Source: Tenacibaculum sp. | GTDB taxonomy: Bacteria; Bacteroidota; Bacteroidia; Flavobacteriales; Flavobacteriaceae | DNA: 64,000 nucleotides | Direction: 5' to 3' | Assembly: GCA_022448525.1 (NCBI GenBank) | Contig: JAKVCX010000001.1 | Coordinates: 422,734 to 486,733, forward strand | Shown: one piece after another, positions 2,469-41,539 of the stretch | Numbering within the stretch: position 1 is the first letter of the stretch | Layout: every line of letters begins with the position of its first letter | Translations under genes and position numbers: made by a program | Notes under the pieces: model-generated | What the model saw: the letters and a program-made list of their open reading frames with translations, nothing else | Database searches by the model: none | Told to the model about the DNA's origin: nothing

Positions 2469-3605
2469 ATGAAAACAATCACTTTATCTTTAAAAAGGCA
2501 TAAAGGAAAAATATGCATTTTTATCTTTTTCGATTACGATTCGGAAATAATTACTTTATTAAAGAGTGAAACTTCTGCTCATTGGAGCAATTCAAAAAGA
2601 GCTTGGTACTTACCTTTTACGAACGAGAATAAAAATCTCTTATTAAAAACGTTATCAAAGTATCACGTTAAAAACAACATTCATGATAATCAACTTGACT
2701 TAACTGAAGAACAAAAAACGTTTTTAAATGGATATTATTTATTTTTAAAAGGAAAGAGATACAGTAAAAGTACTGTTAAAACTTATACTCATTTTATTGC
2801 CTTATTTGTCAATCATTATAAAGAGAAAGAGTTAAATACATTAAGCAATTTAGAGGTTCGAAAATTTATTGAGGACGTTTTCCTTAAAAGAAACTATTCC
2901 ATAAGTACACAACGTCAATTCATTAGTGCAGTTAAACTATTCTGCATTTATTACCCAGAATGTAATATTAAAAATTTAGAATTAACACGTCCGAAAAAGT
3001 CAAAAAAACTACCTGTAGTTCTATCTCAAAAAGAAGTTATCTCAATCATCAGAGTAACTAAAAACTTAAAACATCGTGCTATTATTACACTGCTGTATTC
3101 ATCTGGAATTCGAATAAGTGAATTACTTGCTTTGAAATTAGCTGATATAAATATTGAACGTAGACAACTTCGAATTGTTAATGCAAAAGGTAGAAAAGAC
3201 AGATATGTAATTTTAGCTGAGAATTTTATTCCCTTATTATTGAATTACTACCATACTTATCGGCCTAAAGAGTATTTAATAGAAAATTTAAATGGAAATC
3301 AATATTCAGCAAGTAGTGTTCGAAAATTTATCAAAAAGTCTTGTAAATTGACTGGAATATTAAAAAATGTAACTCCTCATACTTTCAGGCACAGTTTTGC
3401 AACACATTTGTTAGAAGACGGAGTAAATTTAAGATATATACAAGATTTACTAGGGCATAGTAAACCAGAAACGACCATGATTTATACTCAAGTAACACAA
3501 AAAAGTTTACTAAATATTAAAAGTCCATTAGATCAAATAACCAATAACAAAAAGATTAGTGAATTAGAACAAAAGTTCCCGTTATCCGGAATATTAAACC
3601 GATAA
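2469..3605 (+). CDS. tyrosine recombinase, integron-integrase-like (Xer-like, with N-terminal extension)
   Basis: Catalytic residues R (SSGIRISEL), K (AKGRKDRY), HxxR (TPHTFRHSFATH), H (DLLGHSKPETT), Y (MIYTQV), C-terminal IKSPLD; directly precedes the cassette array. Confidence 0.93.
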   Translation: MKTITLSLKRHKGKICIFIFFDYDSEIITLLKSETSAHWSNSKRAWYLPFTNENKNLLLKTLSKYHVKNNIHDNQLDLTEEQKTFLNGYYLFLKGKRYSKSTVKTYTHFIALFVNHYKEKELNTLSNLEVRKFIEDVFLKRNYSISTQRQFISAVKLFCIYYPECNIKNLELTRPKKSKKLPVVLSQKEVISIIRVTKNLKHRAIITLLYSSGIRISELLALKLADINIERRQLRIVNAKGRKDRYVILAENFIPLLLNYYHTYRPKEYLIENLNGNQYSASSVRKFIKKSCKLTGILKNVTPHTFRHSFATHLLEDGVNLRYIQDLLGHSKPETTMIYTQVTQKSLLNIKSPLDQITNNKKISELEQKFPLSGILNR

Positions 3606-3608
3606 ACA

Positions 3609-3641
3609 GGTATATTTGTTTTGATATAACTAGTTAGCACC
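3609..3641 (+). promoter_or_regulatory. putative attI-like site and first cassette junction
   Basis: TATATTTG (3611-3618, -7-like), palindrome TAACTAGTTA (3627-3636), crossover-type GTTAGCACCAAT starting at 3633. Confidence 0.55.
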
Positions 3642-3645
3642 AATT

Positions 3646-4440
3646 ATGAAATCGAACACTTTAATAATATTTCTGCTTTTATTTGGGTTGTTTCATTCTT
3701 GTAATGAAAAATCGGAAAATAAGAAAGGAGAATTTATTGAAAGTAAATTATTTGGTAAAGTGAAAAGTGTCGAAACAAGAACTTTTGAAAATGATACTTT
3801 AAAATCAAGAGTATTGGAATTCTATAACGAAAATGGAATAATTGAAAAAGAAGAAACACATTTTGAACCGAATTTATCCTCTATTGTTAAACATTACAAA
3901 TATGATCAAAAGAATAGATTAATAAGAGAACAAATTATTACAGACGGAGATTCTACTTTTTCGAGTAAATATTCATACAATAATCTCGGACTTGTAAAAA
4001 AAGAAGAATCTTACTTAAATAAACTTCAAACAGTTACAGAATTTAAACTTGATAGTTTAGGAAAAACCATTGAAAAGAAATTTGGATATGTGAAAACAAA
4101 TGGATTTAGGAATTGGGAATATGAATATCCTAATGAAAACACAACTCTGACAAAGGAATTTTTTAAAAGTAATTCGCCAGAGAAAATAACTGAATTAAAA
4201 ATTATTCCTCAAAAAAACAAAAAAGTTCGGACTACAAAATATTCATTTCCGATATCAGAATCAAAAGAAACTTTCTATCATAACAACTTAGGAAACCTAA
4301 TTAAAATGGAAAAATACTATAACGGTAAATTGATAGAAAGCAAGAATTTCACCTATGTATTAGATTTTAATCAAAATTGGATAAAGTCAGAAAGTGAATT
4401 GACAAAAAAAGAAAGAATTATAGAATATTATAAAAAGTAA
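3646..4440 (+). CDS. cassette 1: predicted lipoprotein, unknown function
   Basis: LLLFGLFHSCNEK lipobox; flanked by GTTAGCACC / GGTGCTAAC. Confidence 0.8.
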   Translation: MKSNTLIIFLLLFGLFHSCNEKSENKKGEFIESKLFGKVKSVETRTFENDTLKSRVLEFYNENGIIEKEETHFEPNLSSIVKHYKYDQKNRLIREQIITDGDSTFSSKYSYNNLGLVKKEESYLNKLQTVTEFKLDSLGKTIEKKFGYVKTNGFRNWEYEYPNENTTLTKEFFKSNSPEKITELKIIPQKNKKVRTTKYSFPISESKETFYHNNLGNLIKMEKYYNGKLIESKNFTYVLDFNQNWIKSESELTKKERIIEYYKK

Positions 4441-4442
4441 CA

Positions 4443-4579
4443 GGTGCTAACACCGTGTATAATTAATTGCGACTGAATTTCCTCGGCGGAAATTCAATCT
4501 TATTAATTATCTTTCCGAAACATCGGAAAATGACTCGTGTCCTTTCCCGCAAAAAATCATACACAAAGTCGTTGTGAGC
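4443..4579 (+). repeat. attC-like site 1 (class A)
   Basis: GGTGCTAAC...gtgtataattaattgcgactgaatttcctc...atacacaaagtcGTTGTGAGC. Confidence 0.9.
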
Positions 4580-4582
4580 AAT

Positions 4583-5107
4583 ATGAAAAAACTCTTTGCA
4601 TTATTAATTTTGACCATTATTTCAGCTTGCGGTAGAATGAAAAACAATTGCGTGAATGCAAATAAAATTGAAAAAAAATCGACCGAATATTTAATTTCAA
4701 AATCAGATAGTATTTCTGCAATTAGAGAAAGTGAGTGGGAACAAAAAGCAGAATTAGAAAAGCAAGGAATTATAAGTGAAATTAATTTTGAGAGTAATAT
4801 TTACTTCAACCAGAATTGCTTTACAACAGAGAAGTTAGAATTTGCTTATTGCGCAATTGGAGCTATGCTTAAAAACGAGAATTTAAGAATTCGGATAGTT
4901 GGTAACTTGGATAAATTTGAATTAAAAAACAATCCTGAATTATCACTCAAGCGGGCTGAATTTGTTCAGATGATTATGATTAAGAATGGAATTAAAAAAA
5001 ACCGGATTGAAATACTTGATGTTAAAAACGACCGACCAAACACTCCTTTAAATGAAAAAGGGAGAAAAGAAAATCGTCGAATTGATTTTGAAATTATTAA
5101 TGAATAA
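4583..5107 (+). CDS. cassette 2: OmpA-like lipoprotein
   Basis: Lipobox ISAC; INFESNIYFNQN...LKRAEFVQMIMIKNGIKKNRIEI...NRRIDFEI OmpA-like pattern. Confidence 0.7.
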   Translation: MKKLFALLILTIISACGRMKNNCVNANKIEKKSTEYLISKSDSISAIRESEWEQKAELEKQGIISEINFESNIYFNQNCFTTEKLEFAYCAIGAMLKNENLRIRIVGNLDKFELKNNPELSLKRAEFVQMIMIKNGIKKNRIEILDVKNDRPNTPLNEKGRKENRRIDFEIINE

Positions 5108-5114
5108 AATACTT

Positions 5115-5248
5115 CTCACAACAATGTATAACCGCAATTACGGCGGATTCGACTTCGTCCGAATTCACTCGGTAATTACTATCACTAGTTTTTAATCAAA
5201 ATATGTAACTTTAATCCCGTAACAACAGTTATACAAATATGTTACACC
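5115..5248 (+). repeat. attC-like site 2 (class B)
   Basis: CTCACAACaatgtataaccgcaattacggcggattcgac...GTTACACC. Confidence 0.88.
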
Positions 5249-5252
5249 ACAT

Positions 5253-5807
5253 TTGAAAAGTACAACCGAAATAGAAGTTAATAAATACGAAAAACCGATT
5301 AGAGAATTAGTTGGAATGTCGATTGTTAACGTAAACTATTATGAAATAGATTACGGAAAACCAATGTGGAATGAAATTGATTATCACTCGTTAGATTACG
5401 GTATTGAATTAGTTACCTCTGACAAATCGAAATTCTATTTTGTGTGGGGAAACAACTATACTCAATACGATTTAATATTTCGAAAAGGGAATATATTAAC
5501 TGAATTTAGCAAGGAAAATGGAGTAAAAAAACATATTGTAACCAATAACCAAAAATGGACTGAATTAATTGGAGCAAAAATAAACGGAATTGAAAGTTAT
5601 TGGTCTTATTGGAGCTTAATTAACGATGGTAAGCCAAATTACTATCCCCAAGATGTTCGTGTTGAATTTGAAAATGGAAAAGAAATATGGATATCTGCAC
5701 TTGAAATAAGAGACGGAAATATAAACCGAATGATAGACAATCTAACTGTAGTATTCGATAAAAAAACAGCGAAAAAATATAAAATCGGAATTAAAAACGA
5801 GGTGTAA
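5253..5807 (+). CDS. cassette 3: hypothetical protein
   Basis: 184-aa ORF filling the cassette; TTG start just after R'. Confidence 0.7.
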   Translation: MKSTTEIEVNKYEKPIRELVGMSIVNVNYYEIDYGKPMWNEIDYHSLDYGIELVTSDKSKFYFVWGNNYTQYDLIFRKGNILTEFSKENGVKKHIVTNNQKWTELIGAKINGIESYWSYWSLINDGKPNYYPQDVRVEFENGKEIWISALEIRDGNINRMIDNLTVVFDKKTAKKYKIGIKNEV

Positions 5808-5938
5808 CAACGCGTATAATTAATTGCGGCTGAATTTCCTCACCGGAAATTCAATCTTATTAATTATCTTTCCGAAACATCGGAAAATGACTTGCGTCCT
5901 TTTCTCGCAAAAAAATCATACACAAATACGTTGTAAGT
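5801..5938 (+). repeat. attC-like site 3 (class A)
   Basis: GGTGTAACaacgcgtataattaattgcggctg...acacaaatacGTTGTAAGT. Confidence 0.9.
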
Positions 5939-5962
5939 AATGCCGAAAAACCCAGAAACCAA

Positions 5963-6757
5963 GTGAATAAAACAACATTTGAAATTACCAAAATGGATTG
6001 TCCTTCAGAGGAAAATCTTATCCGAATGAAATTGGACGGAATTTCAAGCATTGCGAATTTGGACTTTGATATTCCGAATCGAAAATTGACCGTTTTTCAC
6101 AGCGGAGAAATTGACCAAATCGAAAAGTCCGTTATCGAATTGAATTTAGGTGGAAAAAAAATCTCAACGGAACAAACCGACCAAACGGAATTTAAAGAAA
6201 ACGAAAATCAGAAAAAACTACTTTGGTCTGTACTTGCCATAAATTTTGCTTTTTTCATTATTGAAATGACAACAGGAATTATCTCAAAATCTATAGGACT
6301 TGTTGCCGATAGTTTAGATATGCTTGCGGACAGTTTTGTGTACGGAATTAGTTTGTTTGCGGTTGGCGGAACAGTAATAAAGAAAAAACGGATTGCCAAA
6401 CTTGCTGGATATTTTCAAATAATACTTGCGATTATTGGATTTGTGGAAGTTTTAAGAAGATTTTTTGGAAACGAGAAACTTCCCGATTTTTCGACAATGA
6501 TTATCGTTTCGATTTTTGCACTTATTGCAAACGGAATTTGTCTTTACATTTTGCAAAAGTCAAAAAGCAAAGAAGAGGCTCATATGAAAGCGAGTATGAT
6601 TTTCACATCAAATGACGTGATTATCAATTTAGGAGTAATAATTGCTGGAATTTTGGTAAATTGGTTGAGTTCGAGCAAACCTGATTTGATTATCGGAACA
6701 ATCGTTTTTGTTTTGGTAATTCAAGGAGCGTTTCGAATTTTGAAATTAAGTAAGTGA
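5963..6757 (+). CDS. cassette 4: cation diffusion facilitator (CDF)-type transporter with N-terminal HMA-like segment
   Basis: EITKMDCPSEENLIRMKLDGI HMA-like start; multiple TM helices, SIGLVADSLDMLADSFVYGISL CDF-type motif. Confidence 0.75.
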   Translation: MNKTTFEITKMDCPSEENLIRMKLDGISSIANLDFDIPNRKLTVFHSGEIDQIEKSVIELNLGGKKISTEQTDQTEFKENENQKKLLWSVLAINFAFFIIEMTTGIISKSIGLVADSLDMLADSFVYGISLFAVGGTVIKKKRIAKLAGYFQIILAIIGFVEVLRRFFGNEKLPDFSTMIIVSIFALIANGICLYILQKSKSKEEAHMKASMIFTSNDVIINLGVIIAGILVNWLSSSKPDLIIGTIVFVLVIQGAFRILKLSK

Positions 6758-6770
6758 ATAAAAAAGCACT

Positions 6771-6966
6771 ACTTACAACAATGGCTATACGTAATGCGGG
6801 TTTTCTGCTAAACGAAAGGTCAGTGCATTTTAAGAAGTCCGCCAATACTTTAATTTGGTATTTAAAGTGAATAAAATAAAAACAAAATATAAACTATTGG
6901 CTCAGTGCAAATTTGAAACTTTCCGCTTTCAAATCCCGCACTACGCATAGCCGGGTCGTTGCCAGT
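6771..6966 (+). repeat. attC-like site 4 (class E)
   Basis: ACTTACAACaatggctatacgtaatgcggg...catagccgggtcGTTGCCAGT. Confidence 0.85.
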
Positions 6967-6969
6967 AAT

Positions 6970-7707
6970 TTGAAAAACACATTGAAAAGATTAATAATTA
7001 TATTTCTGACTTTGACAATTTGTTCTTGCAATAGACAAGATAAAATTCCCAAAGAGCTAAAATTTTCGTTTGAATATATCAATGAAAAATGGGATTCAAA
7101 AGAAATTGAAATTTTTAAAAACATTTCGGAAAATGATTCAACAACACCGAGAAATTATCATTTCGGAATAGGGATGCATTTAAGAAATAATCTTTTAAGA
7201 CATCACGAACAATCAGAAAATCTGACTAATTTTTTTGACTCAATTGGAATCCATCATTACGATGATATGTCTTCAATAATTCTGACTTCTTATCATAGGT
7301 ATTTAAATAAGCAAGACATAAAATTACAATCTCAAGTTGATAAATATGTTGAATATTGGAAACCAATAATTGAATGTGATAAGAATCTAAAAATAAAAGC
7401 AGTTGAACTTTATAATAAATACAAAATTGGAGACACTTTAAGTATAAAAATGCCAGTAAGCGAGAATAATAGCGTTGTAGATTATCCTTGCTCAAACGGA
7501 GCTTTGCAATGGGAATTTGATGAATCCAAAGACCTATCTATTAGCGGAATAATTACTGACAAGAACAATATTAATAGTGAGAAAAGTGTATTTTTTACAG
7601 TCAAGATTTTGACTAAAAATCATTTAGAAACAGAAATTATGATGGAAGAAGTAAACATCGGAGACGAATTCAAAGTCGGACTTTCAACAGCTTGGAAAAT
7701 TGAGTAA
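6970..7707 (+). CDS. cassette 5: predicted lipoprotein
   Basis: IIIFLTLTICSCNRQ lipobox; TTG start after R' more plausible than the track start. Confidence 0.65.
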   Translation: MKNTLKRLIIIFLTLTICSCNRQDKIPKELKFSFEYINEKWDSKEIEIFKNISENDSTTPRNYHFGIGMHLRNNLLRHHEQSENLTNFFDSIGIHHYDDMSSIILTSYHRYLNKQDIKLQSQVDKYVEYWKPIIECDKNLKIKAVELYNKYKIGDTLSIKMPVSENNSVVDYPCSNGALQWEFDESKDLSISGIITDKNNINSEKSVFFTVKILTKNHLETEIMMEEVNIGDEFKVGLSTAWKIE

Positions 7708-7712
7708 AAAAC

Positions 7713-7915
7713 TACTGGCAACACGGTGTATAAAACATAGCTAAAAAGTGCTAAATCGAGAGGTTTGTGTATATTTATAGAGTACGCCAAATTTTTAATT
7801 TGGCTTTTTAAAAGAGAAAAATTAAAAACAAAATATAAAAATTCGGCTCTGTGTTAAACCGAAAAGTTAGTGTGTTTTTGCACGCTACGTTTCATACACA
7901 AGTCCGTTGGTAAAC
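7713..7915 (+). repeat. attC-like site 5 (class C)
   Basis: ACTGGCAACacggtgtataaaacatagc...gccaaatttttaatttggc...gctacgtttcatacacaagtccGTTGGTAAAC. Confidence 0.87.
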
Positions 7916-7923
7916 ATTCAAAT

Positions 7924-8523
7924 ATGAAAAAGTATATAATTACACTTAAATTGACTCTTTTATTATTTATCTCTTGTAACCAGAAGAAAACTGAAAAGAC
8001 TGAGAATATAAAATCTGTAAAAAAGGCTCTTAAAATTGATAACAAAATAATAGAAAATAAAAAAGATTCAAATTCACAAAAAAAACAAAAGACTAACCAA
8101 ATACAGAATACTATTCCAGACCAATATTTTGAGAATGACAGTCTATTAGACCTTTTTGAGACTGATTTAGATAAGCTTCCTTTAAATCTAAAGTTTGAAT
8201 TATTAGCTAAACCAAAAACCAATAACTTCGACGAAACTGTTATTGATACAATTAAAAAATACACTTTTGATAAAACTATTATTTACTCATATAAAGCAAC
8301 AAACTGGGAGTCCATTTATTTCGCCAAAATTGAGAATTCTGTATTTAAATTTTTAGACTCTTTATCTGTCGGAACTAAAAAGCAGAGTTTTGAAAACTTA
8401 CTAAAAACTGAATTGAATACTGATTTGGTTAAAATCGGGAATTTGGAACAAACTTCTGTTTTTTCGTTCACTTTTGAAAATGAAAGATTAAAAACAATCG
8501 AATATGATGGTTACGTGGACTAA
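7924..8523 (+). CDS. cassette 6: predicted lipoprotein
   Basis: LTLLLFISCNQKK lipobox. Confidence 0.72.
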   Translation: MKKYIITLKLTLLLFISCNQKKTEKTENIKSVKKALKIDNKIIENKKDSNSQKKQKTNQIQNTIPDQYFENDSLLDLFETDLDKLPLNLKFELLAKPKTNNFDETVIDTIKKYTFDKTIIYSYKATNWESIYFAKIENSVFKFLDSLSVGTKKQSFENLLKTELNTDLVKIGNLEQTSVFSFTFENERLKTIEYDGYVD

Positions 8524-8529
8524 AAATAC

Positions 8530-8668
8530 GTTTACCAACAAAGCGTATAATTAATTGCGGCTGAATTTCCTCACCGGAAATTCAATCTTATTAATTATCT
8601 TTCCGAAACATCGGAAAATGACTCGCGTCCTTTCCCGCAACAAAATCATACACAAATACGTTGGCAAA
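8530..8668 (+). repeat. attC-like site 6 (class A)
   Basis: GTTTACCAAC...GTTGGCAAA around class A body. Confidence 0.92.
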
Positions 8669-8672
8669 CATT

Positions 8673-9311
8673 ATGAAAAAGATTCTTCAAATAATTATAC
8701 TTCTAACTTCTATATTAACTTTTTCACAAGAAAAGTTAAGTGGAAAATATTGCTCGATTCCAATTGGAGAGTCAGATGTTACTTGCATTGATTTTAAACA
8801 AAATAATCAGTTTGAATATTCTATTAATGGTTGTTTAGGAACTTCTCATATTGGAACCGGAATTTTTGAATTAAAAAACAAAACTCTAAGACTGACATTT
8901 GATAAAAAAAAACAGCCGACAAGAAATATAGTTAATGTTAAAGAGGTTAAATCAAATTCTGAAAAGATAGAATTTGAATTTGTAATAAAAGATGAATATG
9001 GATTTTCTCTTTACGCAGACGTAATTGAAAAACCTAAAATCAAAGTTTTAGAGATTAACAATGAGAAAAAAACTATGGAAGTTGAGAAAAAAGATTCTAA
9101 AATAAAATATCAAATAAGTTCATTAGGATATGAAATTGTTGAATTGGAACTGGAACATAATTCAAGCAAGTTAATTGAAATTACTATGTTTCCGTTTCAA
9201 ACAAAATTAATTTCTGAAAAAGTGTTTGAATGGAATTTAACGGAAATAAATGATGGAGAGTTTAAAACTGGACCAAATATTTGGAATACATATCGAAAAA
9301 TTGAAAAATAA
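8673..9311 (+). CDS. cassette 7: secreted hypothetical protein
   Basis: Signal peptide MKKILQIIILLTSILTFSQ. Confidence 0.7.
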   Translation: MKKILQIIILLTSILTFSQEKLSGKYCSIPIGESDVTCIDFKQNNQFEYSINGCLGTSHIGTGIFELKNKTLRLTFDKKKQPTRNIVNVKEVKSNSEKIEFEFVIKDEYGFSLYADVIEKPKIKVLEINNEKKTMEVEKKDSKIKYQISSLGYEIVELELEHNSSKLIEITMFPFQTKLISEKVFEWNLTEINDGEFKTGPNIWNTYRKIEK

Positions 9312-9313
9312 CG

Positions 9314-9453
9314 ATTTGCCAACAAGGTGTATAATTAATTGCGGCTGAATTTCCTCGTCGGAAATTCAATCTTATTAATTATCTTTCCGCAATATCGGAA
9401 AATGACTCGCGTCCTTTTCCCGCAAAAAATCATACACAAATACGTTACCACCA
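9314..9453 (+). repeat. attC-like site 7 (class A)
   Basis: TTTGCCAAC...GTTACCACCA around class A body. Confidence 0.92.
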
Positions 9454-9464
9454 ATTACGCAAAA

Positions 9465-10274
9465 ATGAGCGAAATAGAAAATAAAAATCTATATCCAGAC
9501 GAGGAAATATCTGTGTTGAAACACTACTCTGAATTTGATAGTGTTTACGTTGGGCTTCTGCCATTTTTCAGACTTGACAAAAAACATTGTGATACTAACA
9601 GCTCTAAAAAAATAATTTCAATCGAACATGCTAGAGAAAAGGACGAGATTTTTGAAAAAATTGGTAATCACTCAAATGTGACAGTTTATTCTTCAAATGA
9701 ATGCTATCCAACTGATGAAGAAATATCTCAAAATGGAAATAAAGTAACTTGGAAAGAAATAATTCTAAACACAAATCTGAATAACAATAAGGAACTTAAT
9801 AAAGCTTTAATGACTTCCATTGGAGCTTTTAAAAAGAAATTACAACGAGAAGATTTATTAAAGGTTTTAAATCAATATTCGGACAAGAATAAGGTTTGGC
9901 ACCCGACAGAAGGTACTTTTGATTTTTTTACTAAATCGTTAATCTATGAAATATTGACACTGAATGGAATCAGAGAAATAGATGTAGAAGACGAATTTTA
10001 TGAAAACAAAAAAACAATTAATTTGAACGAACTAACCAACGGAGAGTTCTGTGATAAAATTGATTTTAATGATTATTATATTTATGATAAAAACAAGTCA
10101 ATTCTTTTTGCAATCAGTTGGGACTATTTCTTCTTTTTCATTGCTATAAATGAAAGAGTTTTTTCAAAACAATCAATTGAAATAAGTTTTGAAGGATTTT
10201 GGGCAGACGAAAAGTGCAATCATTTATGGACTTGGGAAGAAGGAGAAATCGAAAGGTTATTGAGCAAAAAATAA
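9465..10274 (+). CDS. cassette 8: hypothetical protein
   Basis: ORF with ATG 12 nt after R'; upstream part of track ORF is attC sequence. Confidence 0.7.
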   Translation: MSEIENKNLYPDEEISVLKHYSEFDSVYVGLLPFFRLDKKHCDTNSSKKIISIEHAREKDEIFEKIGNHSNVTVYSSNECYPTDEEISQNGNKVTWKEIILNTNLNNNKELNKALMTSIGAFKKKLQREDLLKVLNQYSDKNKVWHPTEGTFDFFTKSLIYEILTLNGIREIDVEDEFYENKKTINLNELTNGEFCDKIDFNDYYIYDKNKSILFAISWDYFFFFIAINERVFSKQSIEISFEGFWADEKCNHLWTWEEGEIERLLSKK

Positions 10275-10279
10275 AAAAC

Positions 10280-10481
10280 TGGTGGTAACACGGTGTATAA
10301 AACATAGCTAATAAGTGCTAAACCCAAAGGTTTCTGCTTATTTATAAAGTCCGCCAAATTTTTAATTTGGCTTTTAAAATGAGAAAAATTAAAAACAAAA
10401 TATAAAAATTCGGCTCTGTGTTAATCCGAAAAGTTAGTGTCTTTTTGCACGCTACGTTTCATACACAAGTCCGTTAACTAA
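10280..10481 (+). repeat. attC-like site 8 (class C)
   Basis: TGGTGGTAACacggtgtataaaacatag...cacaagtccGTTAACTAA. Confidence 0.88.
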
Positions 10482-10956
10482 CATTGTCGAAAATGATGTG
10501 AAGCTTTCTTTTTGATTAATAAAAGTCAGTTTCAAAATTTAACTTTCTAATAATAATTCCAGTTTTATCCTTTTTTTAGAGAACTAAACGTTTTATGCGT
10601 CGGCTTTTTTTGCCAGCTTCTCTCCTATTTGATTGTCGGTTCTTAGTTTCTGTTTGATACGCTTTTGTTTGATTCCGATAACTCAGCTTATTTTTAACTT
10701 TATGAAAGAACCTCTTTGAGCTTTTAGCAAATGATCGCTTAACGTTCTGTCCCGTTCTTTTTCTAAAAAAAGGCTTTACACAAAACTCAAATCACGCAAA
10801 CTAAATGCAAATAAGGCTTGTAATTACTAATTCACTTTTGGCTGAAAATTGTTCCTTTTTGTAAACGCAAGTATTTGCATTCTGTCTCGTTTGCTTTCTG
10901 TATAAAATTTTCTAATCGCATTAAACTTTGGCTAGTGTTCTCCAACATTAGTTAAC
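10473..10956 (+). other. cassette 9: cassette without detectable ORF
   Basis: Complete ends GTTAACTAA / TTAGTTAAC but no ORF of at least 60 aa on either strand in the track. Confidence 0.75.
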
Positions 10957-11084
10957 AGCGTGTATAAAAAATTGCTGCATTCTCTATAAATCAAAAATTA
11001 TATTTACTTTTAAATCATGAAAAACGAATGAAAAATTGCTACTCAAATCATCGCAACTTTTCATACACAATTACGTTGTAAGTA
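10948..11084 (+). repeat. attC-like site 9 (class D)
   Basis: TTAGTTAACagcgtgtataaaaaattgctgcattc...tcatacacaattacGTTGTAAGTA. Confidence 0.82.
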
Positions 11085-11096
11085 ATACGAAAATCT

Positions 11097-11705
11097 ATGA
11101 AACTGACTTTTTTACTGATTCTATTCCTTTCAATATTTTCCTGTAAATCAGATAAAAAAAAGCACTCGTTAAAGGAAAAGACAAATAAAATTGGAATTAA
11201 AACATTCAAAGTTGACGATAAAAATATTAAAGACAGCATTGTAGAATATATAAAAATTGACGGAGATGAATATGCGAATCAAATTTGGTTAATTAATGAG
11301 TCCAACGATACTATCGGAGGGAATTATTTTAACTCTTACATAAAGGACACAATCAAATTAGGTGAAATAGCAAGATTAAGATTTGTGCTAACCAAACCTA
11401 CAATTGATTGGAATTCTGAAATGTTTGTTTTACTACCTTACGATGATGATGAATTGAACTCGGACTTTTCTAATTTGAGAGAAATAAAGCTTGATACTTT
11501 CCACAGTTTAAAAAATGATGGAATTCCACATCCTGAACTTAATGGCTTAGATTTACCTTTAAATCATATTACAGAGTTTGGATTGGATTTTGAAAATTCT
11601 GGAAAAAAAAGAGTTAGAGGAATTGTAGTTGAAAGAGGAGAAAAGTATAATCAAAAATATGAACGTAGATTATTTTTCGACGAGTCAATTTATATACAAG
11701 AATGA
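11097..11705 (+). CDS. cassette 10: predicted lipoprotein
   Basis: LLILFLSIFSCKSDKK lipobox. Confidence 0.75.
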   Translation: MKLTFLLILFLSIFSCKSDKKKHSLKEKTNKIGIKTFKVDDKNIKDSIVEYIKIDGDEYANQIWLINESNDTIGGNYFNSYIKDTIKLGEIARLRFVLTKPTIDWNSEMFVLLPYDDDELNSDFSNLREIKLDTFHSLKNDGIPHPELNGLDLPLNHITEFGLDFENSGKKRVRGIVVERGEKYNQKYERRLFFDESIYIQE

Positions 11706-11717: not shown

Positions 11718-11921
11718 TACTTACAACAAGGGCTATAATTAATACGGGGTTTGGTATTTAATCCAAAGTTTAGTGTATTTTTATAATTTCGTCAAATCAT
11801 TTAGATTTGACTTTTGAATAAGAAAAAATAAAAGCAAACAAAATGCTTCGTCTTAGTGCTTAACCGTGAAGCTATCGCTTCCCTATTCCCGCACTAATCA
11901 TAGCCGAAGCCGTTGTACACA
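11718..11921 (+). repeat. attC-like site 10 (class E)
   Basis: TACTTACAACaagggctataattaatacgggg...catagccgaagccGTTGTACACA. Confidence 0.88.
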
Positions 11922-11943: not shown

Positions 11944-12873
11944 ATGAAAAAACATCTGATTCTAATGACAATTTTATCTTCACTATTTGGCTTCGGTCAA
12001 AATAAATTTGAAAAAATTAAAAAGCACATTATCGAATCTAACTATGATATTGAAAGTTCAGATAAATTAGAAATACTTGATTTAATAAAACCTACAATTG
12101 GAATAAAAACCAAATCGAAAGACGACAATGAAATAGAAATTGGAACTTCTAAAATTGGAGGAAATCCAGACTTACCAAAAGATTTTAAATGGCCAAAATT
12201 TGAAAATGAATATTTGACTTTTTGCGCACAATACGATTTAAGTGAATTGAGTAAATACGATTTACAAAATAATCTTCCAAAAAATGGAATGCTGTATGCT
12301 TTTGTGTTTATTGACCAAAATTATCCTGGCTTTACAAATAAAGAATCAAGTTACAAACTGATTTATCTTGAAAATACTAAAAATATTGAACGGATTGAAT
12401 TCCCGAAAGAATACTTTTTGGAAGGTAAATTTAAGCCTGCTCAAATTGAATATTTTGAGTATTATACATTACCAGATGACGAAAATTATAAAATAAAAAA
12501 ATACGACTCGAAATACAATGACTTTAGCTATTTCTATGAAACTGTAACTGAATTTATTGATAATCTTACTAATCAAGAAACTGATAATTTTCATCAAATT
12601 CTTGGAGAAGATAGGTCTGTTCAGTCAAGTGTAGTATTTGACTTCGCAACTAAAAAATTGGAAATTAAAACTATTGAGGAATACGAATCAAAAAAAGCTG
12701 AAATTGAGGAAATTTCAAAAAAATATAGAATATTATTACAACTCGACTGTAATGACAGAAATTCAGATTTAAGTAGGTTTGGAGGAAATGCAGTAATGTA
12801 TTTTGGAATTGAACCTGAAAATATAGAAAAGAATAATATTGAAAATGTAATTATGGCTTTTCAAGGAACATAG
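11944..12873 (+). CDS. cassette 11: DUF1963 (YwqG-like) protein
   Basis: KIGGNPDLPKDFKWP...FCAQYDLSEL...ILLQLDCNDRNSDLSRFGGNAVMYFGI pattern. Confidence 0.75.
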   Translation: MKKHLILMTILSSLFGFGQNKFEKIKKHIIESNYDIESSDKLEILDLIKPTIGIKTKSKDDNEIEIGTSKIGGNPDLPKDFKWPKFENEYLTFCAQYDLSELSKYDLQNNLPKNGMLYAFVFIDQNYPGFTNKESSYKLIYLENTKNIERIEFPKEYFLEGKFKPAQIEYFEYYTLPDDENYKIKKYDSKYNDFSYFYETVTEFIDNLTNQETDNFHQILGEDRSVQSSVVFDFATKKLEIKTIEEYESKKAEIEEISKKYRILLQLDCNDRNSDLSRFGGNAVMYFGIEPENIEKNNIENVIMAFQGT

Positions 12874-12887: not shown

Positions 12888-13026
12888 TGTGTACAACAAT
12901 GTATAACCGCAATTACGGCGGATTCGACTACGTCCGAATCCACGCGGAATTGCTAACGTCTGTGCCAAACCGAAAAATAAAAGCATATTAACCCGTAACT
13001 GACGGTTATACCAGACCGTTGGCATT
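12888..13026 (+). repeat. attC-like site 11 (class B)
   Basis: TGTGTACAACaatgtataaccgcaattacggcgg...gacggttataccagaccGTTGGCATT. Confidence 0.88.
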
Positions 13027-13435: not shown

Positions 13436-13462
13436 AATATATTACTCAAAGTACTAAAACGA

Positions 13463-13601
13463 AATGCCAACAAGGTGTATAATTAATTGCGGCTGAATTT
13501 CCTTGGCGGAAATTCAATCTTATTAATTATCTTTCCACATCATCGGAAAATGACTCGCGTCCTTTACCCGCAAAAAATCATACACAAATACGTTGTAGCA
13601 C
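13463..13601 (+). repeat. attC-like site 12 (class A)
   Basis: AATGCCAAC...GTTGTAGCAC. Confidence 0.92.
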
Positions 13602-14174: not shown

Positions 14175-14312
14175 GTGCTACAACAATGTATAACCGCAAT
14201 TACGGCGGATTCGACTACGTCCGAATCCACTCGGAATTGCGAGCGTCAGTGCTTAATCGAAAAACAGTAACTTAAAACCCGTAACTGACGGTTATACGAG
14301 ACCGTTATGTGT
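14175..14312 (+). repeat. attC-like site 13 (class B)
   Basis: GTGCTACAACaatgtataaccgcaattacggcgg...GTTATGTGT. Confidence 0.9.
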
Positions 14313-14998: not shown

Positions 14999-15013
14999 AG
15001 ATTAAACTAAAAA

Positions 15014-15070
15014 ACACATAACACGATGTAAAAATGCATTAAAACGCATTTTACACAAACAGTTGGCTTT
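15014..15070 (+). repeat. attC-like site 14 (short class F, 57 nt)
   Basis: ACACATAACacgatGTAAAAATGCattaaaacGCATTTTACacaaacaGTTGGCTTT single hairpin. Confidence 0.75.
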
Positions 15071-15481: not shown

Positions 15482-15485
15482 TACA

Positions 15486-15625
15486 AAAGCCAACAAGGTG
15501 TATAATTAATTGCGGCTGAATTTCCTCACCGGAAATTCAATCTTATTAATTATCTTTCCGCAACAACGGAAAATGACTCGTGTCCTTTTCCCGCAAAAAA
15601 CATCATACACAAATACGTTACCTGC
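15486..15625 (+). repeat. attC-like site 15 (class A)
   Basis: AAAGCCAAC...GTTACCTGC. Confidence 0.92.
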
Positions 15626-27559: not shown

Positions 27560-28048
27560 ATGAAAACACTATTTGAAAATTATATAACAAAAATTGACTC
27601 AAATAGAATATTGAGAGACATATTTATTAACGCTATTATCTCAGGTGTAATATTTAGTTTATTAATATCTATCTTGACCTGGACAAAACCAAATATTAAT
27701 CGAGTATTGATTTTTATATTAATCTTCGCGTTATCAAAATTATTCCAATCTCTAAAACATAATTATAAAAACCACTTGGAGAGAATTTCTCTTGACTATG
27801 AGAATGGAAAAATTATTATAAATCACATAAGACCTTCAATAAAAAAGACTGAGACCGTTATGAATTTTAAAGAATTAAGAGTCTCTAAAATCAAATACAT
27901 ACCTGTTCCTTGGTTTTCGCTTGAGAACTATTTTTGGATATCCGATAATTATTCGAAAATTAAAATCTCTACTGCCGGATATGAGAATAAAGAAATTAAT
28001 ATAAATGAGATTCACTCTGAATTAAACAACATACAACAAGGTGTATAA
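27560..28048 (+). CDS. cassette 32: membrane protein
   Basis: Two TM helices; ORF runs into attC for its stop. Confidence 0.7.
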   Translation: MKTLFENYITKIDSNRILRDIFINAIISGVIFSLLISILTWTKPNINRVLIFILIFALSKLFQSLKHNYKNHLERISLDYENGKIIINHIRPSIKKTETVMNFKELRVSKIKYIPVPWFSLENYFWISDNYSKIKISTAGYENKEININEIHSELNNIQQGV

Positions 28049-28167
28049 TTAATTGCGGCTGAATTTCCTCAGCGGAAATTCAATCTTATTAATTATCTTT
28101 CCGCAACAACGGAAAAGAACTCGCGTCCTTTTCCCGCAAAAAATCATACACAAATACGTTGTGCATA
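28029..28167 (+). repeat. attC-like site 32 (class A)
   Basis: ACATACAAC...GTTGTGCATA. Confidence 0.92.
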
Positions 28168-28758: not shown

Positions 28759-28900
28759 TATGCACAACAACGCGTATAATTAATTGCGGCTGAATTTCCT
28801 CACCGGAAATTCAATCTTATTAATTATCTTTCCGCAACAACGGAAAATGACTCGTGTCCTTTTCCCGCAAAAAACATCATACACAAATACGTTGTGCAAC
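28759..28900 (+). repeat. attC-like site 33 (class A)
   Basis: TATGCACAAC...GTTGTGCAAC. Confidence 0.92.
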
Positions 28901-28925: not shown

Positions 28926-29522
28926 TTGACAAAAAAAATTAACGGAATGACTTTTCCGCTTTTAACAATTATAGCTGTAACTCTTTTAATGTATTATTCA
29001 TTTGACAAAAGTTGGTTATTCAATTGGAATGGAATTAGAGAGGAGATAAAAGACACGGTGAAAATTGCTCAAAACAAACTGGTTTCCGGAAGATTTGTTG
29101 GAGAAGGAGGCGTAAAATCTTCACAATATAACAGGAGAAAATGGATAATGAAAACTGCAACAGTATCAGAACTTTTAAAACTTACTGATTACCCTAATGG
29201 AACTATAAAAACTATTGCCTATGAAGGACTTCTGAGAAAACCTCATTTCCATGATAAGAGCAATATAGCTCTTAAAGCAATCTCTGAAACTGATTATTTT
29301 ACTAACTATGAATCTGGCTGTATGGTAACAGATATGACAATTGGAGAATATATAGTTGATTACGTTCTTCAGATTGGAGATTTAAGTCCTCCTCCTCCAC
29401 CTGGTGGTTTCGGACTGAAGTTTGGTATTTCTGAAGAAGAATGTGAAAAATTATTAAATGAATATAGGAAAGTACCTGGCTTATTAAGAAAAAATACGTT
29501 GCACAACAAAGCGTATAATTAA
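28926..29522 (+). CDS. cassette 34: hypothetical protein with N-terminal TM
   Basis: MTFPLLTIIAVTLLMYYSF; PPPPPGG; stop inside attC. Confidence 0.65.
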   Translation: MTKKINGMTFPLLTIIAVTLLMYYSFDKSWLFNWNGIREEIKDTVKIAQNKLVSGRFVGEGGVKSSQYNRRKWIMKTATVSELLKLTDYPNGTIKTIAYEGLLRKPHFHDKSNIALKAISETDYFTNYESGCMVTDMTIGEYIVDYVLQIGDLSPPPPPGGFGLKFGISEEECEKLLNEYRKVPGLLRKNTLHNKAYN

Positions 29523-29636
29523 TTGCGGCTGAATTTCCTCAGCGGAAATTCAATCTTATTAATTATCTTTCCACAACATCGGAAAAGAACTCGCGTCCTT
29601 TCCTGCAAAAAATCATACACAAATACGTTGTATGCA
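29498..29636 (+). repeat. attC-like site 34 (class A)
   Basis: GTTGCACAAC...GTTGTATGCA. Confidence 0.92.
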
Positions 29637-32006: not shown

Positions 32007-32201
32007 TGCGTACAACAATGCCTATACGCAATGCGGGGTTTGTCGTTTAAATTAAAGTCTCTGCTCCCGTTCCACTCGCATTGTTTATATTTATCTCAAA
32101 AATTAACAAAATATAAAACAAGGCTCGTTTACAATCGTGCGAGGATTGAAACTAACGCTTCCAATCTCCCGCACTATGCATAGCCGAAACCGTTGGCAAC
32201 A
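32007..32201 (+). repeat. attC-like site 35 (class E)
   Basis: TGCGTACAACaatgcctatacgcaatgcgggg...catagccgaaaccGTTGGCAACA. Confidence 0.86.
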
Positions 32202-33693: not shown

Positions 33694-33711
33694 GAAAATA
33701 CTGTGGGCAAC

Positions 33712-33903
33712 AAAGTGTATAAAACATAGCTAATAAAGGCTAAAACGATAGGTTTATATATATTTAGAAAGTCCGCCAAATTTTTAATTTGGCTTTTAAA
33801 ATGAGAAAAATTAAAAACAAAATATAAAAATTCGGTTCTGTGTTAATCCGAAAAGTTAGTGTCTTTTTACACGCTACGTTTCATACACAAGTCCGTTACC
33901 CGC
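33712..33903 (+). repeat. attC-like site 37 (class C)
   Basis: TGTGGGCAACaaagtgtataaaacatag...cacaagtccGTTACCCGC. Confidence 0.87.
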
Positions 33904-34287: not shown

Positions 34288-34294
34288 AACATCA

Positions 34295-34434
34295 GCAGCT
34301 AACAAAGCGTATAATTAATTGCGACTGAATTGCCTCACCAGAAATTCAATCTTATTAATTATCTTTCCGAAACAACGGAAAAGAACCCGAGTCCTTTTCT
34401 CGCAAAAAAAATCATACAATAATACGTTGTGTGT
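34295..34434 (+). repeat. attC-like site 38 (class A)
   Basis: GCAGCTAAC...GTTGTGTGT. Confidence 0.9.
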
Positions 34435-34958: not shown

Positions 34959-34962
34959 AACG

Positions 34963-35058
34963 AACACACAACACCGCAATTAATTATCTTTCCGAAACAT
35001 CGGAAAATGACTCGCATCCTTTTCTTGCAAAAGATTATACACAAATACGTTTTAGCAA
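34963..35058 (+). repeat. attC-like site 39 (class A, internal deletion)
   Basis: AACACACAACaccg|caattaattatctttccgaaac...GTTTTAGCAA. Confidence 0.8.
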
Positions 35059-35492: not shown

Positions 35493-35630
35493 CTGCTACA
35501 ACAATGTATAACCGCAATTACGGCGGATTCAACTTCGCCCGAATCCACTAAATAATTACTAACAGTAGTTTTTAGTCAAAATATATAAATTTAATCCCGT
35601 AACAATAGTTACACAAATACATTGGCACAC
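35493..35630 (+). repeat. attC-like site 40 (class B, altered crossover base)
   Basis: CTGCTACAACaatgtataaccgcaattacggcgg...aatacATTGGCACAC. Confidence 0.82.
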
Positions 35631-36257: not shown

Positions 36258-36397
36258 GTGTTATAACAAGGTATATAATTAATCGCAGCTGAATTTCCTC
36301 GGCAGAAATTCAATCTTATTAATTATCTTTCCGTAACATCGGAAAAGGACTCCCCTCTTTTACCGCAAAAAAATAATACTCAAATACGTTGAAAACA
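36258..36397 (+). repeat. attC-like site 41 (class A)
   Basis: GTGTTATAACaaggtatataattaatcgcagctg...caaatacGTTGAAAACA. Confidence 0.87.
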
Positions 36398-36876: not shown

Positions 36877-37560
36877 ATGAAAAGACAAATAAGCATATTT
36901 TTAATATTGATTTCATCATTGAGCGGTAAAGCCCAAGATAACCTGAGAGACTTTTATTATCCATTTTCCAATAAAACAGAAACTAAAATTTACAAGTATG
37001 TAGATAAAAACGATTCGACAAAAATTGAATATTGGAAAGTGACTTCCATTCCAGAAACAAAAGAGTTAAAAACAGTTTCTTATGATTCTGAATTTAAAAT
37101 TTACAACACGTTTGATGAAAGAATAACTGATTATGGTGCTGAATTAACTGCCTATTGTGACTTTGAAGTAAATGACAAGGGAGAAAGGAAACAGATTGAA
37201 GCCAAAGTAATCGACAAAGATGTTTACAAATGGAACGGGGATAAAGAATATAAATATTCAGTCAAGTACGTTAATAAATATGGACGCTTCGACTTTATAA
37301 AGAAAAGAGCGGAATCTGGAATTGAAAATGTTACTGTAAATGGAACGGAGTATCGAGCAATAAAATTTAGAGATGATTATATAATTACTGCGCTTGACCG
37401 GGATGTTGAGCAAAGATTTTATCAAGACGCGTTCTATGTTAAAGATATTGGAATGATAAAATACAAAAGAAAAATCCCTGTTCAACATGAGATGATTGAA
37501 TTAGAATTGGTGGAAATACTTACTGAATCTCAATTTGAAAAAATAAAAGGCAGTAGGTAA
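36877..37560 (+). CDS. cassette 43: secreted hypothetical protein
   Basis: Signal peptide MKRQISIFLILISSLSGKAQ; track start lies in previous gene. Confidence 0.68.
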   Translation: MKRQISIFLILISSLSGKAQDNLRDFYYPFSNKTETKIYKYVDKNDSTKIEYWKVTSIPETKELKTVSYDSEFKIYNTFDERITDYGAELTAYCDFEVNDKGERKQIEAKVIDKDVYKWNGDKEYKYSVKYVNKYGRFDFIKKRAESGIENVTVNGTEYRAIKFRDDYIITALDRDVEQRFYQDAFYVKDIGMIKYKRKIPVQHEMIELELVEILTESQFEKIKGSR

Positions 37561-37690
37561 CAAAGCGTATAATTAATTGCGGCTGAATTTCCTCAACGGC
37601 AATTCAATCTTATTAATTATCTTTCCGAAACAACGGAAAAGAACTCGTGTCCTTTTCCTGCAAAAAATCATACACAAATACGTTGCTCAA
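37553..37690 (+). repeat. attC-like site 43 (class A)
   Basis: GTAGGTAACaaagcgtataattaattgcggctg...GTTGCTCAA. Confidence 0.9.
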
Positions 37691-37708: not shown

Positions 37709-38434
37709 ATGACCATATTACAAAAAATAGCTAGAAAAATTATAAAACTGTCATTCGATCTTTCCGTTTCAATAATCGAATTATTCAGTAAAATGGAGCC
37801 TTATAAAAAAAAGGTATCTGAATTAAGAAAACTTGAAGACGGAACTTTAGGAAAGGAAATAGCGAAATATCTTGACTATAATAATCTTAATTTAGTACCA
37901 CAATATGAAAGTCACGATTTAAAACACATTTTGCTTAATTATCAAATGACAGCAGAAGACGAAATTCGTATGCAAGCATTTATGATTGGAAACGGAAATT
38001 ATTCTATTCCTTCATTTGCTATTTTAACTTTCGGAGCAATTTTACTTCCTGACTTGTGGGCAACTTTTTACTCAGACTTTCAAAAAGGTAAAAAAACGAT
38101 CGGAATATCAGAATGGACAATCGAGAAATACGCAACTAGAAACCTGATTGAATTAAGAGCTGAATTATTAAAACCAGAACTTGAACAAAAAACAACTTTT
38201 GATTTGAAACGAATTACCCAAATTGGAGCTTATGCATCAATAGCAGCAGGAACGTTTGGAATGATATTCTGTTTACCATTTCTTTTCTCATCAAATATCG
38301 CTGATTTAATTGGAGCAGGGTTTCCTTTTGTTGGTGGAGCAATATTATTCATTGGTGGTCTTTTTACCTTATCTAATTTGTCTCGATCAAATCAAAACCA
38401 GCAGGAAACAAAGCGAATAATTCATTTTGGCTAA
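37709..38434 (+). CDS. cassette 44: membrane protein
   Basis: Two TM helices near C-terminus. Confidence 0.68.
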   Translation: MTILQKIARKIIKLSFDLSVSIIELFSKMEPYKKKVSELRKLEDGTLGKEIAKYLDYNNLNLVPQYESHDLKHILLNYQMTAEDEIRMQAFMIGNGNYSIPSFAILTFGAILLPDLWATFYSDFQKGKKTIGISEWTIEKYATRNLIELRAELLKPELEQKTTFDLKRITQIGAYASIAAGTFGMIFCLPFLFSSNIADLIGAGFPFVGGAILFIGGLFTLSNLSRSNQNQQETKRIIHFG

Positions 38435-38501
38435 ATTTCCTTAACGGAAAATAATAGTGTCGTTTCCTGTAAAAAAATCATACACAAATACGTTACCACA
38501 C
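38401..38501 (+). repeat. attC-like site 44 (class A, degenerate/shortened)
   Basis: aggaaacaaagcgaataattcattttggctaaatttcc...catacacaaatacGTTACCACAC. Confidence 0.75.
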
Positions 38502-39356: not shown

Positions 39357-39490
39357 GTGTGGTAACAATATATTATGAAAGCTTGCGGATTTATTCTTTT
39401 GGACTAAATCTCGCAAAACCAAAATTCCATCGCCTTTAGTTAACTTTACAATCAAAAAGTGCATATAACAATACACAGAACCTTAGCTAA
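39357..39490 (+). repeat. attC-like site 45 (degenerate)
   Basis: GTGTGGTAACaatatattatg...ttaactttacaatcaaaaagtgcatataac...cCTTAGCTAA. Confidence 0.55.
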
Positions 39491-39506
39491 TATTAAAAAC
39501 GACAAT

Positions 39507-40550
39507 TTGAAACAAAATCTTCTTACGATATTAACATTTCTAATCTGTTCGAGTTCTTTCGGACAGTTTGCTTTCAATAACATTGAATTTAAGCTAAAAG
39601 AACCGCCTAAATCAGCTTACCGAATTATCCAAACTAAAAAAGGACAAGTAAAAAAAATTCTTGAATTCAACTCTGAAAACAAAATCATATTTGATTACCG
39701 AGAAACCGAAATTCCACCTTTTTTTAAATGGAAAGAACCTCATAGGTTTATTTACGCAAATGAATATGATAAAGATGGTAGAATTGTAAAACTATATGGC
39801 TTTAATTCAAACGCAGGCTTGTCAATTTATACTTACGAGTATGGACAAAGTCCAGTAACAAAAACATTATTCACTCAAGAATATCCAAAAACAAAAGATT
39901 TCAAGCAGAATACTAATGCCTATGCTTACATTTCAAAATTTAAAGATTTTAAGCAATTAAAGAGTTCTAAAGAAGTTGAAAAGATTATTGCGTCACCTAA
40001 ACTAAAAGGTTATACAGAAATCCTTAACTATCAAAACAAACCAATTCAGAAAAAAGAATACAGTAACATGTATCGCGACACGATTTTAACTTCTTTTCTA
40101 TACAACTCAAATGGAGATGAAACTTTTAAAAAAATTGTTGGAATCAGTAATAATGAAACCAAAAAAGAAATAAATAATACTTTTGAACAAAACTCTGAGA
40201 CAACAGAGATAAAGAGTTTCAAAGATGGAGAAGTAACATCAGTTTATCGGTTTGCTAATTCAACAAATCAAGATAAGAACACAAAGACTGAATATTCTGA
40301 AAGTAGAGGTACCTTGAATATTCGTCATTACGAATATGACCAAGACGATTACTTGATAAAAGTTTCGGTTTACGAAACAGAATACAATGGTAATCTTATA
40401 GTGCCAATCACACCAGACTTACGAAAAACATCTGAAATGATTTACAAATACAACAAAGATGGACTACTTGAAAAAGAGAAAATGACAAATTTTCAAATGA
40501 ATAAGAAAGACATCAGAAAATATAAGTATAGAATTGAAATCATTGAATAA
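39507..40550 (+). CDS. cassette 46: secreted hypothetical protein with Rhs/YD-like EYD repeats
   Basis: Signal peptide; ANEYDKDGRIVKLYGF, YNSNGDETFKKI, YKYNKDGLLEKEKM. Confidence 0.6.
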   Translation: MKQNLLTILTFLICSSSFGQFAFNNIEFKLKEPPKSAYRIIQTKKGQVKKILEFNSENKIIFDYRETEIPPFFKWKEPHRFIYANEYDKDGRIVKLYGFNSNAGLSIYTYEYGQSPVTKTLFTQEYPKTKDFKQNTNAYAYISKFKDFKQLKSSKEVEKIIASPKLKGYTEILNYQNKPIQKKEYSNMYRDTILTSFLYNSNGDETFKKIVGISNNETKKEINNTFEQNSETTEIKSFKDGEVTSVYRFANSTNQDKNTKTEYSESRGTLNIRHYEYDQDDYLIKVSVYETEYNGNLIVPITPDLRKTSEMIYKYNKDGLLEKEKMTNFQMNKKDIRKYKYRIEIIE

Positions 40551-40556
40551 ATAACA

Positions 40557-40650
40557 TTTACTAACACGGTGTATAAAACGTAGCTCATAAGTCCTAAATC
40601 GCAAGATTTGTGCTTATTTACAAAACCTAACAAATTTTTAATTTGGCTTT
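40557..40650 (+). repeat. attC-like site 46 (class C, truncated left part)
   Basis: TTTACTAACacggtgtataaaacgtagctcataag...caaatttttaatttggcttttaaaaag then fused to ORF. Confidence 0.75.
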
Positions 40651-41539
40651 TAAAAAGAATAATTTAGAGAAAATAAAGTCATTCATTCGGAATTCAAAAG
40701 AAATCGAAATCGAAAAATCCGACAAAGAAAAACTAATCAAAATGATTAGACCAACTGTCGGCATTAGGACTAAATCGAGTGATGAAAAAAAACTAAAAAT
40801 TAGAAAATCAAAAATCGGCGGAAAACCTGATTTACCAAAAGACTTTGATTGGCCTAAATCAAACAATAAATCAATGTTATTTTGTGCTCAATATAATTTG
40901 TCTGAACTAACAAAATTTGATAAAGAAAACATCTTGCCGAAAAAAGGATTCTTTTACATCTTTTTAAGCCTTAACCAAGACTGGAAAGAATTTAATGGTA
41001 TAAATCAACCATATAAATTTATATTCAGCGAAACTGAAAACATCATCCGGACTGAATTCCCAGATGACCTTGCAGATAATCAAACATTGAAAACAGCGGA
41101 AATCGAGTATTTTCAATTTTACACAATTCCAGATGACGAGAATTATAAACTATACGAGTTTGAGAAAAAATATGATGATTTTTACTTTTATTTTTATCAA
41201 CCAACAGATGAATTTCTAATTGAAGAGCTTTATAATGATTCAAATCAAATGCATCAAATACTGGGATACGACAGGTCAATACAATCGAGTGTCGTTTATG
41301 AATTCGCCTCAAAAGAATTAGGCCTTTATTTAGCCGAAAGTTCAGAACATAAAAAACGTTGGAATGATATATTAGATTTATCAAAAACTTTTGAATTACT
41401 CTTGCAATTAGATTGCGAGGACTCAAATACTGATTTATCAAAATTTGGTGGAAGTGGAACTTATTATTTCGGACTATCTAAAACTGATTTAGAAAATAAG
41501 AACTTTAACGATATTAAAATGACGTTTCAAATGACATAA
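40643..41539 (+). CDS. cassette 47: DUF1963 (YwqG-like) protein, N-terminus fused to attC remnant
   Basis: Similar to 11944-12873: KIGGKPDLPKDFDWP, FCAQYNLSEL, LLLQLDCEDSNTDLSKFGGSGTYYFGL. Confidence 0.65.
   Translation: MAFKKNNLEKIKSFIRNSKEIEIEKSDKEKLIKMIRPTVGIRTKSSDEKKLKIRKSKIGGKPDLPKDFDWPKSNNKSMLFCAQYNLSELTKFDKENILPKKGFFYIFLSLNQDWKEFNGINQPYKFIFSETENIIRTEFPDDLADNQTLKTAEIEYFQFYTIPDDENYKLYEFEKKYDDFYFYFYQPTDEFLIEELYNDSNQMHQILGYDRSIQSSVVYEFASKELGLYLAESSEHKKRWNDILDLSKTFELLLQLDCEDSNTDLSKFGGSGTYYFGLSKTDLENKNFNDIKMTFQMT

Follow-up and report, generated by a model that had tools for sequence, protein, structure and literature searches.

Can gene cassettes be captured in the manner of an integron by a recombinase that is not IntI? 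This question is raised by a stretch of 64,000 nucleotides from Tenacibaculum sp. (assembly GCA_022448525.1, contig JAKVCX010000001.1, positions 422,734 to 486,733), referred to below as the window. The host is a 3.9-Mb Flavobacteriaceae genome, and the window carries a large cassette array in which a gene for a 378-aa tyrosine recombinase (2469-3605, + strand) is followed by approximately 46 cassettes in a single orientation. On the comparisons given below we consider it highly probable that the window holds an integron-type system, sedentary in the chromosome, whose recombinase comes from outside the IntI family. Judged by its organisation, that is by the pairing of each cassette start with its own end, the G|TT core, the attI site and cassettes that move as units, the system resembles a working integron. 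Judged by the traits that define IntI systems it stands outside that family, its recombinase lying in another clade and lacking the insertion; the IntI-specific additional domain has been used as such a defining trait (PMC2426708, PMC9668308). The main features are as follows.

2469-3605, + strand: 378-aa tyrosine recombinase, proposed as that of the integron, with a XerA-like catalytic core and no IntI insertion
2469-2678, + strand: N-terminal domain of the recombinase, residues 1-70, probably HARP/XPB-DRD-like (model pLDDT 85)
3582-3640, + strand: attI, with TTATCCGG at 3582-3589 (3' end of the gene), TATATTTG at 3611-3618 and ATATAAC-TA-G|TT at 3624-3635
3634-42440, + strand: gene cassettes, about 46, all in one orientation, delimited by the complementarity of start and own end and by the cassette list
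42445-56735, + strand: distal zone with decayed attC sites between co-oriented open reading frames (ORFs), the sites lying at 42445, 44035, 45455, 49926, 50551, 54556, 55726 and 56618

The unit of the array is defined by a simple rule: the start of a cassette (GTT and the seven bases after it) is complementary to the end of the same cassette and not to that of its neighbour. For cassettes lying between recognised sites, the mean number of matches to the own end was 5.49 of the seven variable bases, as against 2.76 at neighbour junctions and 2.60 with shuffled ends (sd 0.23, maximum 3.62), and 28 of 39 cassettes matched their own end at six or more positions. Some of the failures were due to overlooked sites (15013-15068 and approximately 17825-17960) or to AACAAC ambiguities. 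When 367 cassettes from the window and its relatives were considered, the own complementarity spanned positions 1-10. A link detector built on this rule found 29 links in the window. Applied to 43 relatives, it gave 55 links over the 268 kb examined on the downstream side of the recombinases and none over 390 kb on the upstream side. Since the linking rule is symmetric, a comparison of strands by its means is uninformative. Of the linked cassettes that carry an ORF of at least 60, 27 have it on the + strand and none on the - strand. The system is also carried by other genera of Flavobacteriaceae. Contigs ended less than 300 bp downstream of the recombinase in 12 of the 48 loci considered (L083-L131), as is expected before repetitive arrays.

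The repeats that separate the units belong to families A (approximately 135 bp, about 25 copies), B (about 200 bp), C (about 135 bp), D (about 195 bp) and E, with one very short site of approximately 56 bp in addition. A search against Rfam gave no score near the gathering threshold. An earlier sequence-only reading had described a recombinase gene with some 46 small co-oriented units behind it, starts complementary to own ends and not to neighbours, and boxes of the forms YAAC..GTGTAT and ATACAC..GTTR, and in all these points it agrees with what we found. It had placed the array at 2469-41539; the array itself stands, while the end point does not, as the sites begin to decay at approximately 38 kb, decayed sites can be traced as far as about 57 kb, and the region of small genes in the same orientation runs on past 64000. 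Its assignment to the "mobile-integron class" had to be given up: this is a large chromosomal array, which we regard as sedentary because the closest congener has it at the same chromosomal place.

The entry point for cassettes lies directly behind the recombinase gene. Alignment of the downstream regions showed that this segment is kept across genera, with TTATCCSG in the last codons of the gene, then TATATTTG, then ATATAAC-NN-G|TT. Of the 83 recombinase loci that have 60 bp or more of sequence behind the gene, 61 contain the attI core, as against 32 of 4150 random segments. The homology of relatives to the window ends at approximately 3635 and different cassettes follow it, and by this comparison the crossover is placed at G|TT, between 3633 and 3634. 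The box at 3611-3618 is a putative promoter box of the -7 type, and TAnnTTTG precedes attI in 38 of the 61 loci with the core. As this motif matches the -7 box of Bacteroidota, a platform promoter reading into the array is a plausible prediction. The exact attI pattern occurs in at least 24 of 301 sampled genomes of the family (19 of 237 genera); these figures are minima, given how strict the pattern is.

In one locus (L209, G443:C6:37500-57499), and also in G655, there are seven attI-like copies, each located after a long repeat (>130 bp) and leading into a cassette-like start that differs from copy to copy. No recombinase lies nearby and there is no clear own-end complementarity; perhaps these copies are scattered platforms.

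Comparison between species indicates that the cassettes move as units. The congener G129 has a recombinase 91% identical to that of the window, at the same chromosomal place, and an array of 106 links over 165 kb. Window cassettes c2, c6 and c17 are present there at full length with 98.0, 99.2 and 99.6% identity, at 101, 131 and 36 kb, thus in a non-colinear order, and c12 (98.9%) lies in a separate cluster on the opposite strand. Intact cassettes that are 98-99.6% identical and reordered, beside recombinases that are only 91% identical, are the ground on which we call them mobile. In another congener (G085) the window cassette at 5931 is the first cassette after attI. Altogether, the fetched loci contain homologues of 11 of the 46 window cassettes.

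The recombinase itself belongs to a lineage of its own. Its profile scores were 221 bits for NF040815 (XerA type, cut-off 220) and 202 bits for the IntI model TIGR02249 (cut-off 265), and it matches Pfam Phage_integrase. R215, K240, H304, R307, H330 and Y339 are invariant in alignment A1. The spacing from KDR to HTxRH is 56 residues in this recombinase group and 54-57 in most archaeal relatives, as compared with 98 in IntI, and aligned with the structure 2a3v the protein has a gap where the IntI insertion sits. In the tree, the array-linked recombinases form their own clade (support 98/85) and IntI another (100/100), while the host Xer proteins (L002, L003) group with E. coli XerD, apart from the array recombinase. 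The sequence-only reading had proposed a different recombinase lineage with different attC families and had asked for a placement among IntI, XerC and XerD; the placement falls outside all three, and together with the missing insertion, the conserved attI and the mobility of the cassettes it upholds the proposal.

At an E-value of 1e-60 no IntI match was found in the host genome or in other genomes of the same family among those listed. Of the 248 Bacteroidota genomes sampled, 70 had an IntI scoring above the curated cut-off, a larger share than earlier surveys had indicated for the phylum; Bacteroidota in GTDB is broad. The phage collection gave no DNA match to window positions 3600-11100, and the phage integrases among the matches listed are more distant, being 34-38% identical over about 70% of the recombinase. 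Plasmids yielded distant relatives only, the best-covering matches (40% identical) being from Chryseobacterium.

IntI reads the strand of its folded site through extrahelical bases, which are contacted by the IntI-specific insertion. Here such bases are scarce: 19% of the new sites have them in the L stem, for the most part on the opposite arm, while in IntI arrays of the phylum 97% of sites have them, on the expected arm. Strand preference is visible in the predicted folds, as the bottom strand folds better in 37 of 39 window sites, compared with 107 of 400 random window segments, and in 71 of 77 site clusters from 41 loci. The G.T pairs found in bottom-strand as against top-strand folds number 335:10, or 74:6 when one site per cluster is taken; the exact arms on which detection relied were left out of this count. 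In the R stem, position 11 has A at the start of the cassette in 97% and C at its end in 84% (n=367), which gives a T.G wobble on the bottom strand, and pairing resumes at 12-13; this position-11 pattern is absent from IntI cassettes. The central spacer is unpaired and asymmetric (3 versus 6 nt and similar), with a difference between arms of 2-3 nt as opposed to 4 in IntI attC. It seems likely that the strand asymmetry is marked by bottom-strand G.T wobbles instead of extrahelical bases. In IntI attC, two to three extrahelical bases lie on the R''-L'' arm, and without them IntI cannot recombine two attC sites; an unpaired central spacer and recombination of the bottom strand alone are likewise described for integron attC (PMC2727003).

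The recombinase has an additional N-terminal domain, which 17 of 18 array-linked recombinases share and which is absent from the IntI and the archaeal and Chloroflexi sets. Residues 1-70 fold confidently as b-b-a-b-b-a-b in the predicted model (pLDDT 85). The top Foldseek match was the HARP substrate-recognition domain of SMARCAL1 (4o66, E 0.068, probability 0.80), with XPB structures also ranking high; Pfam HARP (PF07443) was the best family, though weakly (3 of 22 members, best E 0.0055), and a profile search listed 4o66 at a weak E of 0.27. The modelled domain is probably HARP-like and possibly has a role in reading folded DNA.

A mechanism can be proposed in which the recombinase would insert circular cassettes at G|TT (3633/3634) into the attI immediately downstream of its gene, and the TATATTTG box would probably drive transcription into the first cassettes. 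Every cassette would close with an attC, whose bottom strand, on becoming single-stranded, would fold into a hairpin consisting of an R stem, the unpaired spacer of 3 versus 6 nt, an L stem and a variable tip. Cutting would be restricted to the bottom strand, and the G.T wobbles of that strand, which would turn into A.C mismatches in the top-strand fold, could serve as the substitute strand mark. The HARP-like domain may bind the hairpin, replacing the IntI insertion.

How far do other explanations account for the same observations? The locus could be a true IntI integron whose integrase has secondarily lost the insertion. The cassette rule, the G|TT core and the asymmetric spacer would then be the same, and IntI indeed adjoins the array-linked clade in the best reduced tree; however, the support of that join is 37/0, while the clade excludes IntI at 98/85 and IntI stands at 100/100, and the scarcity of extrahelical bases, the spacer difference of 2-3 instead of 4 and the extra N-terminal domain also speak against it. 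We hold this origin to be unlikely. That Xer modules of the dif/pdif type are mobilised here by housekeeping XerC/XerD would agree with the Xer-like character of the array recombinase, but the genome has separate XerC/D-like genes (L002, L003) grouping with E. coli XerD, the sites are structured hairpins of 56-200 bp with own-end complementarity and not dif sites of about 28 bp, and the arrays are confined to the region downstream of the array recombinase, which makes the explanation very improbable. Even less credible is the view that the repeats are intergenic elements (REP/MITE-like, terminators) with no role in recombination: they do sit between genes and form hairpins, yet the private complementarity of start and end, the exact unit boundaries, the attI site and the linkage to one recombinase would be left unexplained, and the movement of exact cassette units seen between species contradicts it. 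The degraded distal sites, with covariance-model matches that weaken with distance along the array, raise the thought of an inactive relic, once active and now merely decaying. The recombinase and the proximal sites are intact, however, and exact cassettes 98-99.6% identical in a species with a 91% identical recombinase indicate recent movement, which renders a relic quite improbable.

Several points weigh against the reading of a non-IntI integron-type system. The sister relation to IntI has support of 37/0, so that an IntI-like ancestor may have lost the insertion. Link detection and the site lists used a rule that favours the features tested, of which the wobble count removed the wobble part, and the wobble bias could stem from sequence-specific contacts and is partly due to common descent within site families. 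The HARP assignment was made on weak matches (E 0.0055 to 0.27), all agreeing, and one array-linked recombinase (L126) is without the N-terminal domain. The genome comparisons had one genome per species. That the recombinase at 2469-3605 is the enzyme, and that its substrate is single-stranded, we infer, as we do the details of the mechanism.

Among known systems, the array most resembles the IntI superintegrons of the Vibrio type, with which it shares one tyrosine recombinase, an adjoining attI, a long co-oriented array, R and L boxes around G|TT, own-end complementarity, bottom-strand bias, an unpaired spacer, distal decay and cassette proteins that are mostly unknown. It differs from them in that the recombinase is outside the IntI clade, lacks the insertion and has the N-terminal HARP-like domain, in the few extrahelical bases, the spacer difference of 2-3 nt and the G.T wobbles, and in a recombinase that lies upstream of the cassettes in the same orientation. 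The reverse-orientation integrons of Treponema are alike in having the recombinase gene oriented as the cassettes, but they use an IntI with the specific insertion, unlike the system here. Their reverse orientation has been described (PMC9668308). The core and the motif spacing of 54-57 are like those of XerA-like recombinases (NF040815; P. abyssi XerA, 4a8e; Thermoplasma XerA, 5hxy); among the archaeal XerA-like relatives tested, neither arrays beside the gene nor the N-terminal extra domain were found. Polaribacter-linked attC-like sites are known from the attC cluster of Polaribacter phage P12002L, where IntI1 recombined most of the tested sites (PMC9892861). This phage shows no convincing array by the own-end rule, and no phage DNA matched 3600-11100.

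There is, in our estimate, about an even chance that a second recombinase lineage, be it an independent invention or a sister branch predating the IntI insertion, performs integron-type capture with the strand read by a G.T-wobble code and a HARP-like N-terminal domain instead of extrahelical bases and the insertion, and that it is widespread in Flavobacteriaceae. A search of open-access papers, which excluded preprints and most subscription papers, returned no description of this system. Integron recombination is held to need the IntI insertion, and search tools demand it, so that they would miss these arrays of a marine bacterial family, which reach 165 kb. Provided that the system works, it offers a natural experiment on how a recombinase comes to act on folded single-stranded DNA, in which the features that stand in for the insertion and for extrahelical bases can be tested, and it gives access to a large stock of unknown cassette genes. 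The finding bears on the origin of integrons from Xer-like recombinases.

The attC sites of the window and two cassettes of note are given below.

4442-4577, + strand: attC, family A
5113-5247, + strand: attC, family C
5799-5936, + strand: attC, family A
6770-6964, + strand: attC, family D
7713-7912, + strand: attC, family B
8530-8666, + strand: attC, family A
9314-9450, + strand: attC, family A
10280-10479, + strand: attC, family B
10474-11075, + strand: non-coding cassette, 602 bp, multi-copy in related species
10947-11081, + strand: attC, family E
11718-11918, + strand: attC, family D
12888-13024, + strand: attC, family C
13462-13598, + strand: attC, family A
14175-14310, + strand: attC, family C
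15013-15068, + strand: attC, short, about 56 bp
15485-15623, + strand: attC, family A
16320-16455, + strand: attC, family A
16450-17129, + strand: cassette common to congener G129, 99.4-99.6%, exact boundaries
16999-17135, + strand: attC, family A
17825-17960, + strand: attC, divergent
18473-18674, + strand: attC, family D
19203-19339, + strand: attC, family A
19874-20010, + strand: attC, family A
20720-20855, + strand: attC, family C
21287-21423, + strand: attC, family A
22407-22543, + strand: attC, family A
23279-23477, + strand: attC, family B
24033-24169, + strand: attC, family A
24658-24793, + strand: attC, family A
25396-25532, + strand: attC, family A, R' core GTT mutated
26057-26193, + strand: attC, family A
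26819-26954, + strand: attC, family A
27414-27550, + strand: attC, family A
28028-28164, + strand: attC, family A
28759-28897, + strand: attC, family A
29498-29633, + strand: attC, family A
32007-32198, + strand: attC, family D
33702-33901, + strand: attC, family B
34294-34432, + strand: attC, family A
34960-35055, + strand: attC, family A, left half shortened
35493-35627, + strand: attC, family C, R' core mutated (ATTG)
36258-36394, + strand: attC, family A
37552-37688, + strand: attC, family A
38400-38498, + strand: attC, shortened
40554-40665, + strand: attC remnant, family B

When 49 ORFs downstream of the recombinase were scanned against Pfam, the majority had no match; the named products include cation efflux, OmpA-like, Fic, trypsin-like, SUKH, AraC and DUF1963 proteins. 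Two DUF1963 cassette proteins (11944-12873 and 40643-41539) occur in this one array. In the distal zone, an ORF at 46398-47447 contains a 240-bp tandem repeat in two to three copies.

Family A sites were also found in some congeners without a recombinase match, and satellite attC clusters or single sites lie far from the recombinase (G129 at approximately 0.2, 0.91 and 3.48-3.52 Mb; G000:C17:45026), resembling clusters without integrase. The 602-bp cassette at 10474-11075 has no convincing ORF. The first 60 kb of the G129 array hold 13 copies of it, and it has 57 matches in the fetched loci (including the G129 and G035 arrays and L006), sometimes in tandem; it is possible that this cassette is selfish or regulatory. 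In G102 it occupies the first position at attI, and two contigs break off within it.

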